Notes under the pieces: model-generated
Seen by the model: the letters and a program-made list of their open reading frames with translations, nothing else
What the model was told of the DNA's origin: nothing
Database searches by the model: none
Part shown: piece after piece, positions 488-46,624 of the stretch
How positions within the stretch are numbered: the first letter of the stretch is position 1
How the letters are laid out: every line of letters begins with the position of its first letter
Position numbers and translations under genes: made by a program
NCBI GenBank assembly: GCA_017617525.1
Contig: JAFZWA010000060.1
Span: 62,001 to 126,000 of the forward strand
DNA: 64,000 nt
Source of the DNA: Clostridiales bacterium
Lineage (GTDB): Bacteria; Bacillota; Clostridia; Saccharofermentanales; Saccharofermentanaceae
Direction: 5' to 3'

Positions 488-2968
488 ATGCAATTCGGAC
501 ATTTTGACGATAAGACGCGTGAGTATGTAATCGAAACCCCTAAAACACCATATCCGTGGATCAACTACCTTGGCTCGGAGGCTTTCTTCGGTCTGATCTC
601 CAATACGGCAGGCGGATACAACTTCTATAAGGACGCACGTCTCCGCAGAATCACAAGATATCGCTACAACAACGTACCGATCGATATGGGCGGACGTTAT
701 TTCTACATCAATGACAACGGAACAGTCTGGAATCCGGGCTGGTCTCCGGTAAAGACAGAACTCGACTCTTACGAGTGCCGTCATGGTATGGGCTATACCA
801 TCATCACAGGTAAGAAGAACGATCTTAAGGCTGAGGTCACATTCTTCGTACCGAACGGATACGACGGAGAAGTTCAGCAGGTAGTTCTCACAAACGAAGG
901 ATCTTCTGCTAAGACATTCAAGCTTTTCTCTTTTGCCGAGTGGTGCCTTTGGGACGCGCAGGATGACTGCACCAACTTCCAGAGAAACTTCTCCACAGGT
1001 CGTGTAGAAGTAGACGGTTCCGTTATCTACCACAAGACAGAGTACAGAGACAGACGTAATCACTACGCTTTCTATTCCGTAAACGATGCGATCGACGGTT
1101 ACGACACAGATCGTGATTCCTTCATCGGCATCTACAACGGCTTCAATAATCCGGAAGCAGTACTGGCCGGCAAGGCAACAGATTCCTTCGCAGACGGCTG
1201 GTCTCCGATCGCTTCCCACTACAAAGAGATCACACTCGCAGCAGGCGAGAGCAAGACACTCATCTTCATCCTCGGTTATGTTGAGATGCCTGTTGACCAG
1301 AAGTTCGAAGCTGACGGCAAGACAATCAACAAGGTAAAAGCCAAGGCTATGATCGAGAAGTTCGATACACCGGAAAAGGTTGCCGCAGGTCTTGCTGATC
1401 TGAAGGCTTCCTGGGACAAGCTCCTCGGTATCCTCAACGTCACAACACCGGATGACAAGGTCGACCGTATGGTCAACATCTGGAACCAGTACCAGTGCAT
1501 GGTTACATTTAACCTTTCCCGTTCCGCTTCTTACTTCGAATCCGGAATCGGCCGTGGCATGGGCTTCCGTGATTCCAACCAGGATATCCTCGGTTTCGTT
1601 CACCAGATCCCGGATCGTGCGAAAGAGCGTATCATCGATATTGCTTCCACACAGTTCCCGGACGGCGGATGCTATCACCAGTATCAGCCGCTCACTAAGA
1701 AGGGTAACGCCGACATCGGCGGTGACTTCTCTGATGACCCGCTCTGGCTGATCCTTTCCGTTTCCGCTTACATCAAGGAGACAGGCGACTGGTCCATCCT
1801 TGACGAGATGGTTCCTTACGACAACGACATGAGCGTTGCACAGACCATGCTCGAGCACCTGAAGGTTTCCTTCTATCACATCGTAAACAACCTCGGTCCT
1901 CACGGTCTGCCGCTCGCAATGCGTGCTGACTGGAACGACTGCATCAACCTGTCCTGCTACTCCGACACACCGGGTGAGTCCTTCCAGACATACACCAACC
2001 CGAAGTTCGCTGCTGAGGGCGGTTACTCCAAGGTAGCTGAGTCCGTAATGGTTGCTACACTGTTCACCTACACAGGCCCGAACTATGTCGCTATCCTCAA
2101 GCACCTCGGTAAGGACGATGAGGCTGCAGCTGCTCAGGCTGAGATCGACAAGATGAAGAAGAACATCATGGAGTCCGCTTGGGACGGTGACTGGTTCCTC
2201 AGAGCTTATGACGCGAACGGCGAGAAGATGGGTTCTAAGGAATGCGAAGAAGGTCAGATCTTCATCGAGCCGCAGGGCTTCGCTATCATGTCTGATGTAG
2301 GTAAGGAGCAGGGCGCTGACAAGAAGACTCTTGCGGCGATCGACGAAAGACTCAACACCAAGTTCGGTCTCGTTCTCAACAATCCTGCATTCACCAAGTA
2401 CTACATCCAGTACGGTGAGATCTCCACATATCCGGGCGGATACAAGGAGAACGCCGGTATCTTTACACACAACAACGCTTGGATCATCTGCGCGGCTGCT
2501 TACGCAGGTGAAGGTGATCAGGCATTCAAGTACTATTCCGAGATCGCTCCTGCATTCACGGAAGAAACATCCGACATCCACAAGACTGAGCCGTACGTAT
2601 ATGGCCAGATGATCGGTGGTAAGGACGCAGGTTCCGACATCGGAAGAACCGGAAAGAACTTCGGTCAGGGCAAGAACTCCTGGCTCACAGGTACAGCCGC
2701 TTGGAACATGGTTGCAATCTCCCAGTACATCCTGGGTGTACAGCCTGACTTCGACGGTCTGAAGATCGATCCTTCTATCCCGTCCGCATGGGATGGATTC
2801 ACGATCAACAGAAAGTATCGTGGCGCGGAGTACAAGGTAACGATCAAGAACCCGGATCACGTATGCAAGGGTATCAAGAGCGTAACCGTTGACGGAAACG
2901 CGATCGAAGGAAACATCCTGCCTGTATTCGACGGCGGCGTTCATAACGTTGAAGTCGTAATGGGCTGA
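488..2968 (+). CDS. cbpA: Cellobiose phosphorylase (GH94)
   Basis: 826 residues, close to the 810-820 usual for clostridial cellobiose phosphorylases. It would split cellobiose with phosphate into glucose-1-phosphate and glucose in the cytoplasm (EC 2.4.1.20). The N-terminus ([10 protein letters not shown], then PWINYLG) and the stretch [14 protein letters not shown] are characteristic of the family; the (alpha/alpha)6 catalytic part carries RADWNDCIN near residues 479-487, whose last Asp (about 484) is the expected general acid. No signal peptide. The start at 488 has AGGAGG at 472-477; an ATG at 481 is out of frame and stops after eight codons. It follows a probable sugar-binding protein and precedes cellodextrin phosphorylase. 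Confidence 0.95.
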
Positions 2969-2991
2969 GGAAACTCATTTTATTGATTGGT

Positions 2992-3433
2992 TAAACGTAG
3001 TACGGTCCGTTAAGGCGGATGGGGAAACTCCGCCGGGCCGGAAACGTAAGCCATAGCCGTAACGATCGGCGTCCCTCATCGTACTTTGAGGCAATAGCGT
3101 CAGGTGCGGTGGCTCCGTTGGTCAGCTATATATGTACGGCACCGTGTTATTTCCGTGGTTGCACGGAAGAATAAATCAGACCTTCTGTTTGAGGAGACAG
3201 AAACGGGAATGATTTATTTATGGGGAAAGCGGTTCTGGGAATATATGGCTGCGATCGGAAAGGTCGTTTGCCCCGATTGTGGATAAGTTCGCGAAAGCCC
3301 TTAGGGGATGGGAAATTTCGTGAATCCTGGTGGGGAGGTGCAAGGCTTGTGCCGCAGAACCATCTGTAACACAATCGGGCAACGAAAAGGGATCGGACGA
3401 ATCTGATATAGATCATCCGGTCTTATTTTTTTC
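2992..3433 (+). ncRNA. Candidate large structured RNA between the two phosphorylase genes
   Basis: This 480-base gap has no convincing gene but many helices found by eye. P1: cggtcc 3003-3008 with gggccg 3035-3040, stacked on ggcgga 3014-3019 with tccgcc 3029-3034. A 7-bp hairpin at 3151-3168. aataaatca 3170-3178 with tgatttatt 3210-3218, enclosing ttctgt 3183-3188 with acagaa 3197-3202. A long-range helix of about 16 bp joins 3264-3281 to 3370-3385 and encloses a 9-bp stem, 3288-3296 with 3316-3324. A terminator hairpin and U-tract close it at 3391-3433. It does not show the landmarks of RNase P, tmRNA, SRP, 6S, T-box or cobalamin RNAs that I know. It could be a free ncRNA or a leader controlling the next gene. 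Confidence 0.6.
3391..3433 (+). terminator. Intrinsic terminator immediately before the cdpA ribosome binding site
   Basis: gatcggacga (3391-3400) pairs with tcatccggtc (3413-3422) with one mismatch, followed by TTATTTTTTTC at 3423-3433. The cdpA Shine-Dalgarno AGGAGG starts two bases later, at 3434. A terminator in this place either ends a separate RNA or attenuates cdpA transcription. Confidence 0.65.
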
Positions 3434-3448
3434 AGGAGGACAAATACG

Positions 3449-6424
3449 ATGAAAAGTGAAAGAGCAAGATCAGTCATTGCACCGGCGGATCAGGTGCTTG
3501 CGAAGAAGTTCGGAAATGTCGCAGGCAATGGTCCCGTAAGTGCACAGTACATTTCTACTTTAAATGGCGGCGTGGTATTCGGCGTTGCCGGACTCCCGTT
3601 CCCGGCTCCTGTCTGTGCCGCACTTCTTACTTCAGATGACATCAACGCATATATCGGCGCGGCTGCGCAGAAAAAGGAATCTGTCCTGATCGCGAAGAAC
3701 GACGGAGCACTTCGTCTCTTCGTAGAAGAAAACGGTCAGGTATCCGATAAGACGGAAGACAGTGAAGGAAAGAAACTCCTTTCCGATGCTTCCCCGATCA
3801 TTGAGTACGCTTCCGAGTGGGGCGGTAAACTCGACGAGGGCGGTGAGCTGATCTGCGATCTCAGTTCTCCGGCTCCGGGCCCACACTATTACACCAACCT
3901 TCTCATCGGTAACCGCATCGGATTCGATCATCCGCTGCAGAGTACACCGAAGAGCGCGATCGACCGTGTCGGCGGCGGATGCTTCCGTTCCCACGCGGAT
4001 ACACAGGTTCTCGCTACACGCTGGGACTACCTGCCGGAGCAGAACGGCTTCCCGGCAAACCGTCAGTTCTACCTCGTTGAAAACGGCAAGGTGATCTTCT
4101 ATTCCGGTTCCGCGAAGCAGGATTCCGTAGAGAAGGCAGTCTGCCGTCACGCACAGAACAGAACGGTCATCGAGTACACACTTAAGAACGGTCTTAAGGT
4201 ACGTCGTTCGATCTTTATCCTGCCGCAGGAAGACAAGCTCCCGGTAGCGACGGAAGCACAGCTCATCGAGATCGAGAACAACGGTTCTGAAGGAAAAGAT
4301 CTGCGTATCGTTTACACGGGTATGTTCGGTACTCAGGAAGTTCACGCGCTCCGTGAAGACGTTATCTTCAGCACAGTCGTTGCTCAGTCCGAAGTATTCT
4401 ACGGCGACAACGATGAGATCCGCGCGATCTCCTTCAACCCGAATCCGAAGTGGACGAAGGGCAACATCCGTTACAACACATTAATGGTTCACGAGAACGG
4501 CAAGGTCGTTTTCCCGGATCAGTTCTGCGCCAGATATGCTGATTTCGTCGGCGCCGGCACACTTGAGAATCCGCAGTTCGCGGCAGTTCTCAGTAACGCG
4601 CACTCCAGAAAAGGCCCGGGCTTCTTCGCTCTGTCCGCTCCGTTCACGGTAGCAGCAGGTGCTAAGGTCCAGATCGATAACTTCACATGCCTTTCTTCTG
4701 ACTGCGTTAACGAAAACTACAAAGAAGACATCACCATGCAGGAAGAGCTCGAAGCACTCATTGCTCGTTTTACCGATGCAAAAGCACTTCCGGAGTGCCT
4801 CGATAAGGTGATCTCTTTCACAAAGAAGTATTCTTCTTACATGCAGATCAAGCATGAGGATAAGGACTTCGAAGCTTACGTAAACAACAACCTTCCGTTC
4901 CAGGTATTCTACCAGACGTTCGTATCCCGTTCTCTGGACTGGACACAGAAGGGCTACCGTGAGATCGGTTTCCGTGAGATCCAGGACATCTTCGCATCCA
5001 TGTATTACTTCGCAGGCATGGGCGAGATCGAGTTCGTTAAGAAGCTCCTCCGTGAGTGGATCTCCAACATCTACAAAGACGGTTATGCTAACCACAACTT
5101 CTACTGGAAGGGTAAGGAGCCGGGCTGGTGGTCTGATGACGCACTCTGGCTTCTGCAGGCACTCGACCGTTACATCAGCCTGACCGCTGACTATGACTTC
5201 CTCAAGGAAGAACTCCCGATCGCCGGTGAAGACGGTGAGAAGAGATCCATCCTCGACACGATCAAGGCAGTATTCACATACTCCTACAAGATCTCCGTCG
5301 GCGCTCACGGCATCCCGCTCATCGACAGAGCCGACTGGAACGACTGTCTGCGTGTCGATCCTGACTGCGTAAACGGTCCGACAAAGATCGAGAACTACAA
5401 CGAGCAGCTCAAGGCAAGCGGTAAGAAGTACGGTGAAGTCGCTTACGAGTCTGAGTATTCCGAGTCCGTCATGAACGGATGCCTCCTTAAGGTAGCCGTA
5501 GATGCCGCTATCGGCATGTTTAAGACATGCGGCGACGCTGAATATGGTGCTTACCTCGAGAGCGTTTCCGCGGACCTCAAGAGCCGCATTAATGAGTACG
5601 CTTGGAAGGGCGATTACTTCGCACGAGTTCTTTTCAACAGGAAAGACAAGCCGGAACTTTCTTACCTCGGTGCTCAGGGCGACGGTCTCGTCATCGAGGA
5701 CGGCAAGGTCGGCACATACTTCCTGAACTCCTTCAGTTGGGCGGTCCTTGCTGACTGTGCATCGGAAGAGCAGATCTCCACAATGCTCGACAGCCTCGAC
5801 AAGAATCTCAAGACACCGTTCGGTTTCCGTCTCTGTACAGGCGTTGATTACCCGAAGATCGCTCCGAAGATCGACGTTGCTCTCTACTATCAGGGCGACC
5901 GTGAGAACGGTGCTGTCTTTAAGCACGCCAACATGATGGCTGCCGCCGCGATGCTCAAGGCTGCCAAGGCCGTTAACGACAAGGCTCTGGCTGAACGTCT
6001 CACAAATACTGCATTCTGGGTCATCGACTGCATCCTGCCGTATCGCACAATGAAGTCTCCGTTCACCGTCTGCGGTAACCCGAGACTGTGTACACAGTAC
6101 AACAACTCCGAGACAGGCGAGAACATCGGACCGACGCTTTCCGGTACATCCACATGGCTCCTGCTCTGCCTCTTCACAAGCTTCGGCGTAGACTTCACAA
6201 GTGATGCCCTGATCGTTGAACCGATCCTGCGTCCGGGCGATACTTCCGAGGATATTATGGTTTCTTCGGGTAAAGCACTGTACCACATCACAGTCGATAA
6301 GCCGCAGGGCTTCAGAAGAACCAAGGACGGCGTCTCCATCAGCGTAGACGGATCTCCGATCGAAGGCGTAAGAGTTCCGATCTTCAGCGACGGCGCAGTC
6401 CACGAGGTCAAGGTCAAGTTCTGA
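3449..6424 (+). CDS. cdpA: Cellodextrin phosphorylase (GH94)
   Basis: 991 residues, matching the 980-1010 of known cellodextrin phosphorylases and about 165 longer than cellobiose phosphorylase. It would release glucose-1-phosphate from cellotriose and longer cellodextrins (EC 2.4.1.49). Family features include PAPGPHYYTNLLIGNR, FRSHADTQVLATRWDY and ENGFPANRQFYL in the N-terminal domain and RADWNDCL near residues 627-634, whose last Asp is the expected general acid. Cytoplasmic, with no signal peptide. AGGAGG lies nine bases before the ATG. With cbpA it covers short and long cellodextrins; the pair is split by a structured RNA region ending in a terminator, so it need not be transcribed in fixed ratio with cbpA. 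Confidence 0.93.
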   Translation: MKSERARSVIAPADQVLAKKFGNVAGNGPVSAQYISTLNGGVVFGVAGLPFPAPVCAALLTSDDINAYIGAAAQKKESVLIAKNDGALRLFVEENGQVSDKTEDSEGKKLLSDASPIIEYASEWGGKLDEGGELICDLSSPAPGPHYYTNLLIGNRIGFDHPLQSTPKSAIDRVGGGCFRSHADTQVLATRWDYLPEQNGFPANRQFYLVENGKVIFYSGSAKQDSVEKAVCRHAQNRTVIEYTLKNGLKVRRSIFILPQEDKLPVATEAQLIEIENNGSEGKDLRIVYTGMFGTQEVHALREDVIFSTVVAQSEVFYGDNDEIRAISFNPNPKWTKGNIRYNTLMVHENGKVVFPDQFCARYADFVGAGTLENPQFAAVLSNAHSRKGPGFFALSAPFTVAAGAKVQIDNFTCLSSDCVNENYKEDITMQEELEALIARFTDAKALPECLDKVISFTKKYSSYMQIKHEDKDFEAYVNNNLPFQVFYQTFVSRSLDWTQKGYREIGFREIQDIFASMYYFAGMGEIEFVKKLLREWISNIYKDGYANHNFYWKGKEPGWWSDDALWLLQALDRYISLTADYDFLKEELPIAGEDGEKRSILDTIKAVFTYSYKISVGAHGIPLIDRADWNDCLRVDPDCVNGPTKIENYNEQLKASGKKYGEVAYESEYSESVMNGCLLKVAVDAAIGMFKTCGDAEYGAYLESVSADLKSRINEYAWKGDYFARVLFNRKDKPELSYLGAQGDGLVIEDGKVGTYFLNSFSWAVLADCASEEQISTMLDSLDKNLKTPFGFRLCTGVDYPKIAPKIDVALYYQGDRENGAVFKHANMMAAAAMLKAAKAVNDKALAERLTNTAFWVIDCILPYRTMKSPFTVCGNPRLCTQYNNSETGENIGPTLSGTSTWLLLCLFTSFGVDFTSDALIVEPILRPGDTSEDIMVSSGKALYHITVDKPQGFRRTKDGVSISVDGSPIEGVRVPIFSDGAVHEVKVKF

Positions 6425-44639: not shown

Positions 44640-45557
44640 ATGACCGTTCGCGAATTGCAGGATGCGATCAACAAGGAAAAGAAGGAGCGCGATATCTGTA
44701 TCTTGGTACACGCATATCAGCGTCACGATATCTGGGAAGTAGCCGACTATATCGGTGACTCCTTCGGACTTGCCCAGGAAGCGGCAAAAGTATCTGCCAA
44801 GAAAGTCATCATGTGCGGTGTTCGCTTTATGGCCGAGACCGTAAAGATGCTTTCCCCGGAGAAACAGGTATATCTCGCGAACCCGACAGCGGGCTGCCCG
44901 ATGGCCGAGCAGATCGAGCCGGAAATGCTCGCCGCTTTAAAGGCCGAGAATCCGGACCACACGGTCGTTGCGTACATCAACACGACAGCTGAGCTGAAGA
45001 CACTCTGCGATGTCGCGGTCACATCTTCTTCCGCGGTAAAGATCATCAAGAACATCGATAACGATAAGATCCTTTTCGTACCGGACTGTAACCTCGGCGA
45101 CTGGATCGGCAAGAAGCTTCCGGAAAAGGAAATGAAGCTCGTCCACGGCGGATGTCCGACACACCTTCGTTTCACACAGAGAGATTTCGACAGAGCCCGC
45201 GAGGAACATCCGGGCGCGAAGATCCTGATCCATCCGGAGAGCCGTCCGGAATTCGTCGCTCAGGCGGATTTCGTCGGATCCACAACGGAGATCATGGCAT
45301 ATGCGAAGAAGAGCGATGAGAAGGAATTCATCATCGCGACGGAAAACAGTATCGTCGAGCATCTGCAGTTCGACTGCCCGGACAAGAGCTTTTTCGCACT
45401 TTCCAAAGACTGCGTCTGCCACAACATGCAGGCCACGACACTGGTCGATGTATACCGCACCGTTCTCGGTATCGGCGGCGAAGAGATCATCATGAGCGAT
45501 GAGCTGATCCGCGATTCCAGAAAGTGCATCGACGCGATGCTGGAACTCGGAAAATGA
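44640..45557 (+). CDS. nadA: Quinolinate synthase NadA
   Basis: 305 residues, typical of the short NadA form. Makes quinolinate from iminoaspartate and dihydroxyacetone phosphate with a [4Fe-4S] cluster. Expected cluster Cys are visible: MCGVRFMAE (about residue 60), GGCPTH (about 172) and KDCVCHNMQ (about 260). nadB and nadC are not in the window. RBS GTGAGGT, 14 bases after the CAT-like gene; overlaps mnmA by four bases (ATGA). Confidence 0.95.
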   Translation: MTVRELQDAINKEKKERDICILVHAYQRHDIWEVADYIGDSFGLAQEAAKVSAKKVIMCGVRFMAETVKMLSPEKQVYLANPTAGCPMAEQIEPEMLAALKAENPDHTVVAYINTTAELKTLCDVAVTSSSAVKIIKNIDNDKILFVPDCNLGDWIGKKLPEKEMKLVHGGCPTHLRFTQRDFDRAREEHPGAKILIHPESRPEFVAQADFVGSTTEIMAYAKKSDEKEFIIATENSIVEHLQFDCPDKSFFALSKDCVCHNMQATTLVDVYRTVLGIGGEEIIMSDELIRDSRKCIDAMLELGK

Positions 45558-46624
45558 GCAGCGCTTTGATCGCCATGAGCGGCGGCGTGGATTCTTCACT
45601 GGCCGCCAAGATCATGATGGACAGAGGATACGACTGTATCGGCTGCACCATGAAGCTATACAGCAACGAGGATATCGTTGTTGCCAATCCCAAGACATGC
45701 TGTTCTTTAGATGACGTGGAAGACGCGCGTTCTGTCTGCATGCACCTCGGCATCCCGTATTACGTTTTCAACTTCAAGGAAGAATTCAAGGAAAAGGTCA
45801 TCGGCAAGTTCGTTGATTCCTACGAACACGGAAGGACCCCGAATCCCTGTATCGACTGTAACCGCTATCTCAAATTCGGAAAGCTCTATGAGCGCGCGCA
45901 GGTCCTTAAGTGCGATGTGATCGTCACGGGCCACTATGCGCGTATCGAAAAAAGAGACGACGGTCGCTATCATCTTCTAAAAGCACTGGACGAGACCAAG
46001 GATCAGAGCTATGTGCTTTACAACCTGACGCAGGAACAGCTGGCGCATACGGTATTCCCGCTCGGCGATCTTCAGAAGAGCGAGGTTCGTGAGGCGGCGA
46101 AAGACGCGGGCATGATCAATGCCGAAAAAAGAGAAAGCCAGGACATTTGCTTCGTTCCCGACGGAGACTATGTTTCCTTCTTAAAGAAGACTACGGGAAA
46201 AGAATACCCGGCAGGCGATTTTGTCGATAAAGACGGAAAAGTACTCGGCACCCACAAAGGTATCGTCTGTTACACCCCGGGGCAGAGAAGAGGCCTGGGT
46301 CTTGCGCTTCCGGCGCCGATGTATGTCTCCCGCCTCGATGTGGAAAATAACCGAGTCATCCTCGTATACGATGAAGATCTTAGAAATACCGAAGCCCTGA
46401 TCGACGATGTCAACTGGATCAGTGGCGAAGTTCCTGAAGGTGAGATCCGCGTTACGGCAAAGCTCCGCTACCACCAAAAAGAACAGTGGGCGACTGCCAT
46501 TCCTCTGGAAGACGGAAAAGTCCGCCTTGTGTTCGACGAACCGATCCGTGCGATCACACCGGGACAAGCCGCGGTTTTCTATAACGGCGACGAAGTGATC
46601 GGTGGCGGAACCATTATCGGATAA
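45554..46624 (+). CDS. mnmA: tRNA-specific 2-thiouridylase MnmA
   Basis: 356 residues from ATG 45554, inside the nadA stop. PP-loop SGGVDSS at residues 9-15, catalytic Cys in NPCIDCNRYLKFG (about 100), second Cys in SQDICFVPDG (about 200). It puts sulfur on U34 of Lys, Glu and Gln tRNAs. Last gene of the hydrolase-CAT-nadA-mnmA operon; the long terminator hairpin begins five bases after its stop. Confidence 0.95.
   Translation: MSSALIAMSGGVDSSLAAKIMMDRGYDCIGCTMKLYSNEDIVVANPKTCCSLDDVEDARSVCMHLGIPYYVFNFKEEFKEKVIGKFVDSYEHGRTPNPCIDCNRYLKFGKLYERAQVLKCDVIVTGHYARIEKRDDGRYHLLKALDETKDQSYVLYNLTQEQLAHTVFPLGDLQKSEVREAAKDAGMINAEKRESQDICFVPDGDYVSFLKKTTGKEYPAGDFVDKDGKVLGTHKGIVCYTPGQRRGLGLALPAPMYVSRLDVENNRVILVYDEDLRNTEALIDDVNWISGEVPEGEIRVTAKLRYHQKEQWATAIPLEDGKVRLVFDEPIRAITPGQAAVFYNGDEVIGGGTIIG

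Follow-up and report, generated by a model that had tools for sequence, protein, structure and literature searches.

The 480-base gap between the genes for cellobiose phosphorylase (cbp) and cellodextrin phosphorylase (cdp), in the 64,000-nucleotide stretch of Clostridiales DNA analysed here as a whole (the window), contains a structured RNA under selection, the fold of which is kept by compensatory changes. With high confidence, this selected RNA is regarded as derived from a gene encoding the tRNA-modifying enzyme MnmA (tRNA 2-thiouridine synthase). The explanation which best accounts for the data as a whole, i.e. a mnmA insert turned into a selected RNA acting in cis on the operon, is considered somewhat probable; action in cis, taken separately, is a tentative assignment, falling slightly short of even. 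The features identified are collected in Table 1.

Table 1. Features of the cbp-cdp region and of the native mnmA gene, in window coordinates.
Feature	Position	Strand	Basis and remarks
cellobiose phosphorylase gene (cbp, GH94)	488..2968	+	
mnmA-derived structured RNA, whole intercistronic element	2969..3433	+	putative transcript bounds
GC-rich 5' stem	3004..3039	+	refolding; common to L002-L004
remnant of MnmA codons ~44-64	3026..3088	+	one stop; E 0.05, weak alone; collinear
hairpin H1 (GCCG..CGGC)	3056..3070	+	weakest helix by covariation
helix H2 (3077-3085 with 3103-3111)	3077..3111	+	covariation
long-range helix P3 (3123-3133 with 3241-3251), enclosing H3	3123..3251	+	duplex energies, matched versus swapped arms
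hairpin H3 (3170-3178 with 3210-3218; inner 3183-3188 with 3197-3202)	3170..3218	+	covariation
highly conserved H3 core	3185-3200	+	
remnant of MnmA codons ~183-205	3225..3293	+	another frame; E 0.07, weak alone
3' domain modelled as R1 (P4, P5, P6a, P6b)	3266..3382	+	
helix P4 (3272-3281 with 3370-3379)	3272..3379	+	95.3% of cells paired, mostly invariant
helix P5 (3287-3301 with 3311-3325)	3287..3325	+	covariation
remnant of MnmA codons ~207-240	3296..3397	+	one stop inside; E 2e-8
helix P6b (3327-3333 with 3360-3366) around P6a (3337-3341 with 3349-3353)	3327..3366	+	
terminator-like hairpin and T tract	3390..3432	+	hairpin search; absent from strict scan
cellodextrin phosphorylase gene (cdp, GH94)	3449..6424	+	Shine-Dalgarno 3434-3439
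intact native mnmA	45554..46624	+	44% identical to the G007 gap protein

Folding of positions 2970-3440 gave a minimum free energy of -183.9 kcal/mol, against -145.3 +/- 5.9 kcal/mol for 100 dinucleotide shuffles (z -6.57), none of which was as good, and z scores between -3.1 and -9.4 were obtained for the homologous gaps which were refolded (15 of 22, window included; 40 shuffles each). A preliminary description had held the gap to be far more structured than an ordinary spacer, and these values bear it out. It had also named a match to a known RNA family as an argument against its own proposal of an RNA of unknown class; Rfam was searched and none was found, either in the window gap or in 10 relative loci, at the gathering threshold. 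At a relaxed threshold the sole match in the gap, ylbH, scored 11.6 bits versus a threshold of 50, i.e. at chance level. The suggested kinship with ornate large RNAs is not supported either, as OLE, GOLLD, ROOL, HEARO and raiA are included in Rfam and the gap matches none of them. The RNA lies outside Rfam, but its origin is recognisable, the whole region being, by sequence comparison, a decayed mnmA gene.

Similarity to the gap at the DNA level was detected in 22 of 98 genomes: 20 belong to the same genus, the window's own included, and in all of these the matches lie between cbp and cdp; the other two, outside the genus, have 26-nt chance matches. The latter (L021, L022) were left out of the comparison, together with second matches in gaps already included (L024-L026), gaps identical to those of L010 and L016 (L027, L028) and loci where cbp and cdp are found without an insert (L036, L069, L073, L076, L175). 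The title of the L027 record names sheep omasum. Phage and plasmid collections gave no match to the gap by distant blastn. Outside the window's own clade, full-length identity to the window gap ranges from 0.24 to 0.59, and is often no better than that of fourfold sites; conservation is thus confined to blocks and does not extend over the whole gap.

The origin of the gap is revealed by a single relative, genome G007 (locus L012), where it contains an intact open frame of 352 aa (L127, L012:924-1979). The encoded protein is identified as MnmA by NCBIfam, with 395.9 bits over a cut-off of 284, and holds all three Pfam domains of the MnmA family; by direct reading, it retains the SGGVDS loop and the cysteines of the NPC and DICF motifs, which we take to be the catalytic ones of E. 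coli MnmA. When this protein was compared by tblastn with the 20 other gaps, all of them matched, with a best E-value per gap of at most 7e-4, calculated on a database of 21 gaps only and with composition statistics off. The matches cover up to 208 aligned residues and are interrupted by stops, frame changes or large deletions; by the same tblastn comparison, the full protein is in frame in none of the 20, each holding only part of it. In the window, three short collinear pieces are found, in two frames and two of them with a stop, the first of which contains H1 and the start of H2; no open frame extends over the PP-loop, catalytic and C-terminal domains, and such a frame is present in the gap only in G007. 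MnmA homology, a broken frame and an intact copy elsewhere are the marks of a mnmA pseudogene, and all three are found for the window gap which, as judged from its sequence, is a decayed mnmA remnant, like all other gaps except that of G007 (21 of the 22 RNA copies, none with an intact MnmA frame). The gaps measure between 469 and 1158 bases, that of G007 being the longest, and a long mnmA pseudogene is still visible in the 989-nt gap of G021.

Selection on the fold was evaluated by looking for compensatory changes. For the 3' domain, 22 sequences, 19 of them distinct, were collected in an alignment (A1, window 3266-3382). In this alignment, on which the structure itself was drawn, a circumstance favouring the pairing percentage and, to a lesser extent, the double changes, 88.5% of 696 cells are paired, against 33-48% with slid partners, and 45 cells show a double change, against 17.4 in shuffled controls (none of 500 as many). 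Changes are observed on both sides in 16 of 37 pairs, a number reached by 2 of 500 shuffles; one of the five measures, the count of further pair types, does not exceed the shuffles (43 versus 41.7; 172 of 500). Most of the covariation is held by P5 and P6, P4 being nearly invariant.

For the upstream hairpins, arms were swapped between ten groups, each represented by one sequence and named by us from the alignment and the cdp tree. H2 has 82 of 90 cells paired versus 67.0 with swapped arms (0 of 20000 swaps as good), the outer stem of H3 62 of 70 versus 54.8 (4 of 20000), and H1, for which only seven groups could be used, 37 of 42 versus 34.1 (201 of 20000). The simple patterns used to locate the arms mis-assigned some of them, both for H1 (L012, L011) and for H2 (L005-L007, L020, L174), so that H2 pairing is counted too low in the latter rows; the alignment of H3 (A2), in several rows of which the 3' arm is shifted, did not enter the counts. 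For P3, duplex energies of matched arms, in three draws of one sequence per group, were -141.4, -141.6 and -128.3 kcal/mol, compared to -96.8, -94.9 and -92.9 kcal/mol for swapped arms (0, 0 and 14 of 20000 as good), the helix being rewritten on both sides between clades. G.U pairs exceed A.C combinations on the + strand by 78 to 24, and the constraint is therefore on an RNA read from this strand.

Identity to the window in the 3' domain is higher than that of cdp fourfold sites in 20 of 20 comparisons (84% versus 51% for L008). The 16-nt core of H3 differs by at most one base from the window in the same 20 comparisons, fourfold sites outside the window's clade being 40-60% identical; in G021, not included among the 20, it shows four differences, two of which form a compensating pair.

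The preliminary description had proposed covariation in homologous gaps as a check, and most helices, P3 included, stand above shuffled controls. Two of the helices which it listed are backed by covariation: the one at 3170-3218 corresponds to H3 and the one at 3288-3324 to P5, which is weak at its inner end. The long-range helix placed at 3264-3281 with 3370-3385 exists as P4, in a shorter form, nearly invariant and with only three double-change cells, while the GC-rich stem given as 3003-3040 is predicted by folding at 3004-3039 and is shared with L002-L004; a similar-looking stem occurs at this position in L011.

These results may be set against two explanations which require no selection on RNA. 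The first is that the insert is a plain pseudogene, i.e. that mnmA decays neutrally and that the folding is inherited or accidental. The 21 gaps besides that of G007 are indeed broken mnmA remnants, poorly conserved outside the blocks, and in the 3' domain some 28 of 37 pairs already follow from the amino-acid code of the intact gene, with synonymous codons chosen at random; neutral decay is nevertheless very improbable, given that double compensatory changes far exceed the shuffles, that P3 is rewritten on both sides, that the H3 core is near-invariant and that G.U prevails over A.C. According to the second explanation, the hairpins were produced by template switching at the DNA level (quasipalindrome correction), a mechanism by which short-range hairpins like H1-H3 might take on the appearance of compensatory change. 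This is barely credible, since the arms of P3 covary although they are ~110 nt apart in the window and ~320 nt in G007, and since G.U pairs outnumber A.C on one strand.

An intact native mnmA is located elsewhere in the window (Table 1). MnmA matches over the family cut-off were found in 22 of the 23 genomes of the genus, all but G006, and native mnmA in 21; in G007 the sole match over the cut-off is the gap gene, which may be its working mnmA. A quick tree built from 52 MnmA proteins separates the gap protein (P0001) from the native clade of the genus, itself well supported, and gives it the longest branch of all, 1.45 changes per site, with no firm sister; because of this placement, the gap mnmA is probably foreign. 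A donor search over 398 genomes of the phylum detected, among the matches listed, at most 53% identity to the gap protein. Loss of the frame in the gap copy would be possible because the native gene makes it redundant. When 51 other mnmA loci were scanned with R1, a covariance model of the 3' domain built from the 22 sequences, one match was obtained, at a chance-level E of 2. As side observations, the long branch of the gap protein would fit either a far donor or a protein bent by a second constraint; the G007 genome is about 94% complete, and a native mnmA of the genus type was not found in it; in the window, the native mnmA frame overlaps, at 45524-45557, the last bases of the gene before it (305 aa, 44640-45557), presumably the quinolinate synthase gene nadA.

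Most of the helices are predicted to form already in the intact mnmA of G007, which has more structure than its protein would lead one to expect. Its folding scored z -5.57 against 60 synonymous shuffles and -4.83 against 60 synonymous shuffles also keeping dinucleotides, none being as good in either case; the native mnmA of the window scored -0.42 with synonymous shuffles. Under the combined constraint (16 shuffles each), 14 other mnmA genes ranged from +0.96 to -3.60, so that G007 is the extreme of 15 and not a class of its own; on 699-base stretches, G007 scored -4.46, while 13 further mnmA loci lay between +0.7 and -3.49. The G007 gene forms 33 of the 37 consensus pairs of the 3' domain, a number reached by 44 of 5000 synonymous shuffles, whose mean is 28.3. 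When H1, H2 and H3 are counted together with the 3' domain, 61 of 66 pairs are formed (0 of 5000), a figure biased upwards by the H1-H3 arms having been picked by eye in the G007 sequence; none of the three hairpins reaches significance singly (H1 341, H2 340, H3 1524 and 1830 of 5000). The fold may in part have been inherited by luck from the code, because the amino-acid sequence alone gives most of the pairs.

The above data bear on a reading which concerns the origin of the element and is compatible with the best explanation, namely that selection for the structure began while the gene was still coding, the G007 sequence being bifunctional in that it both encodes MnmA and forms the RNA. We consider this an even call. 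The folding scores, beyond those of other mnmA genes, and the number of pairs formed argue for it; on the other side, control genes reach down to z -3.6 with 16 shuffles, the 3'-domain structure was drawn on an alignment which includes G007, the H1-H3 arms were chosen by eye and singly give no significance, and one intact sequence only is available. Equally balanced, in our judgement, is the wider picture of a foreign gene whose coding sequence would itself be a large RNA fold, put to dual use in one relative, the rest having dropped the protein and kept the RNA.

Searching the 23 genomes of the genus with R1 retrieved the same 22 copies, in 21 genomes and all of them in the cbp-cdp gap, plus three matches at E 0.33-0.93, in G003 and G014, taken as chance; as R1 was built from these 22 sequences, the matches provide no independent support. 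In 115 genomes of the family, one weak match was found beyond the genus, at E 0.054 (G044), and in 188 genomes of the order none at E 0.05, both searches using stricter filters, by which weak matches are lost. Two genomes of the genus lack the RNA: G009, where cdp gave no match at E 1e-100, and G012, which is placed in the same genus and has both cbp and cdp, so that the operon can work without the RNA. Short cbp-cdp gaps with no insert are found in G012 and likewise in four records titled Saccharofermentans or Mageeibacillus (L036, L069, L073 and L076). The cdp of G012 (L172, L175) has a long branch and groups with the cdp of these insert-less records, apart from the other genomes of its genus; its gap is perhaps not the pre-insertion site for this reason.

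Two cdp genes are accompanied by two RNAs in G020, where the data suggest that the cbp-cdp cluster was exchanged laterally. The two clusters of this genome lie on contigs C41 and C54 (L009, L023), and their RNAs come from different clades of the cdp tree. In G003, G014, G019 and G021 the upstream cbp is divergent (55-62% identical) and the RNA still adjoins cdp. In the corresponding loci (L018-L020, L174), cdp is 86-87% identical over its length. As to how often coding was lost, the cdp trees have a star-like base, and a topology uniting all remnants in one clade that excludes G007 withstands the test (p-AU 0.316). One mnmA insertion in the lineage of the genus, of which the window gap would be a remnant, is the simplest reading.

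The 3' end of the element was analysed separately. The preliminary description had placed an intrinsic terminator at 3391-3433, two bases before the Shine-Dalgarno sequence of cdp. Hairpin and T tract are there, offset by one base: a 34-nt hairpin of -13.1 kcal/mol is followed by TATTTTTTTC, and the Shine-Dalgarno sequence starts at 3434, one base past the T tract. When 2900-3500 was scanned with strict consensus patterns, neither a terminator nor a sigma-70-like promoter was listed, the terminator being missed presumably because its stem has a mismatch and a bulge. Within the window's clade, where the terminator abuts the Shine-Dalgarno sequence and no promoter is listed in 2900-3500, cdp would therefore need read-through. 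Of the 22 copies, 13 have, after the 3' domain, a hairpin with a T tract and an energy of at least -7.6 kcal/mol in strength; of the others, three have only very weak hairpins and six none. The terminator-like ends fall into three groups, which differ in sequence and in the distance to cdp (15-18 nt, about 60 nt and about 90 nt), and suggest that such ends were gained repeatedly. The groups are L001-L007 with L010, L016-L017, and L018-L020. In the last one, a strong terminator-like hairpin overlaps apparent former C-terminal mnmA codons (GQA..FY), where a coding stretch seems to have turned into a terminator. A terminator-like hairpin at the end of the region is supported for the window's clade, and lies outside the conserved core; being limited to 13 of 22 copies and unrelated between groups, such ends cannot make attenuation the common function.

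The location before cdp, with a terminator adjoining the Shine-Dalgarno sequence in the window's clade, would also suit a metabolite riboswitch controlling cdp, responding to cellodextrin, phosphate or a sugar phosphate. No evidence for any of these ligands, suggested in the preliminary description, was obtained and, in view of the coding ancestry, of the missing Rfam match and of the 9 copies among 22 in which the terminator-like end is lacking or very weak, a riboswitch is held to be highly unlikely.

The favoured explanation, that of a mnmA insert acting in cis, may be formulated as follows. An ancestor within the genus would have gained a second, foreign mnmA between cbp and cdp, on the assumption of a single insertion and of a foreign donor. 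The mnmA transcript would have carried, or gained, a large fold, made up of H1, H2, P3 around H3 and the P4-P5-P6 domain. Coding would then have been lost, because of the native mnmA, in every sampled insert-holding lineage but one, selection keeping the RNA fold, and the gap, once about 1.1 kb long, would have been trimmed around the latter to some 0.5 kb. The intercistronic RNA might hold the cbp message at its 3' end and limit or tune transcription into cdp, and the terminator right before the cdp Shine-Dalgarno sequence would make it an attenuator in the window's clade. A cis-acting intercistronic element, guarding the 3' end of cbp and lowering or tuning cdp, is the most likely form of action, and its effect would be comparable to that of selective RNA processing in cellulosome operons (PMC4423207).

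The main rival is a trans-acting RNA, either an independent large non-coding RNA or a source of small RNAs, merely carried in the operon. The location of the RNA equally fits such a molecule, simply linked to the operon; the large multi-domain fold, the structure excess over the whole gap and the differing terminator-like ends of the three groups, as if the 3' end mattered, speak in its favour. A role in trans is rated as unlikely, while deserving serious consideration, in that all 22 copies are found in the cbp-cdp gap only and that, in G020 and G009, the RNA varies with the number of cdp copies.

It is unusual for a protein gene to turn into an RNA. The sources of new structured RNAs are largely unknown, because their ancestors are rarely recognisable; here the ancestral enzyme can be identified and the stages coexist in one genus, which makes the order and cause of the change testable. 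If the reading is true, it would document a bacterial conversion of a protein gene into an RNA gene, with a dual-use gene, a long pseudogene and a trimmed RNA all found within one genus. It is also a warning that beneath a strongly folding gap there may be a dead gene, and that a selected RNA may reside in such genes. For the operon, the gap RNA is a candidate for controlling how gut bacteria use the products of cellulose breakdown.

In the portion of the literature which was accessible, including few subscription journals, no description of this RNA was recognised among papers on bacterial RNAs derived from pseudogenes or genes, or on mnmA RNAs. Within the same limits, no report linking cellodextrin phosphorylase to a riboswitch was found, and nothing on this RNA was recognised in papers dealing with Saccharofermentans and cellobiose phosphorylase. 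The MnmA (TrmU) genes are the direct sequence ancestors of the gap RNA, and differ from it by the intact frame, lost in 21 of the 22 copies. As to known systems, selective RNA processing and stabilization operate on the cip-cel operon of Clostridium cellulolyticum (PMC4423207, PMC10311766) where, in a working analogy with the gap RNA, a structured RNA between operon genes would set the product ratio; the cip-cel elements are stem-loops by description, whereas the gap RNA is large, multi-helix and gene-derived. GOLLD, ROOL and OLE are ornate large bacterial RNAs (PMC12286853) and resemble the gap RNA in being large and intricate, but the latter is outside Rfam, has its known copies in one genus and originates from a protein gene. 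Xist and other mammalian lncRNAs derive from protein-coding genes (PMC2430539, PMC5577775): there, as in the gap RNA, a protein gene has lost its frame and part of it persists as an RNA gene. Unlike Xist, the gap RNA is bacterial, a few hundred bases long and endowed with a compact covarying fold, much of which would already be present in the intact gene.
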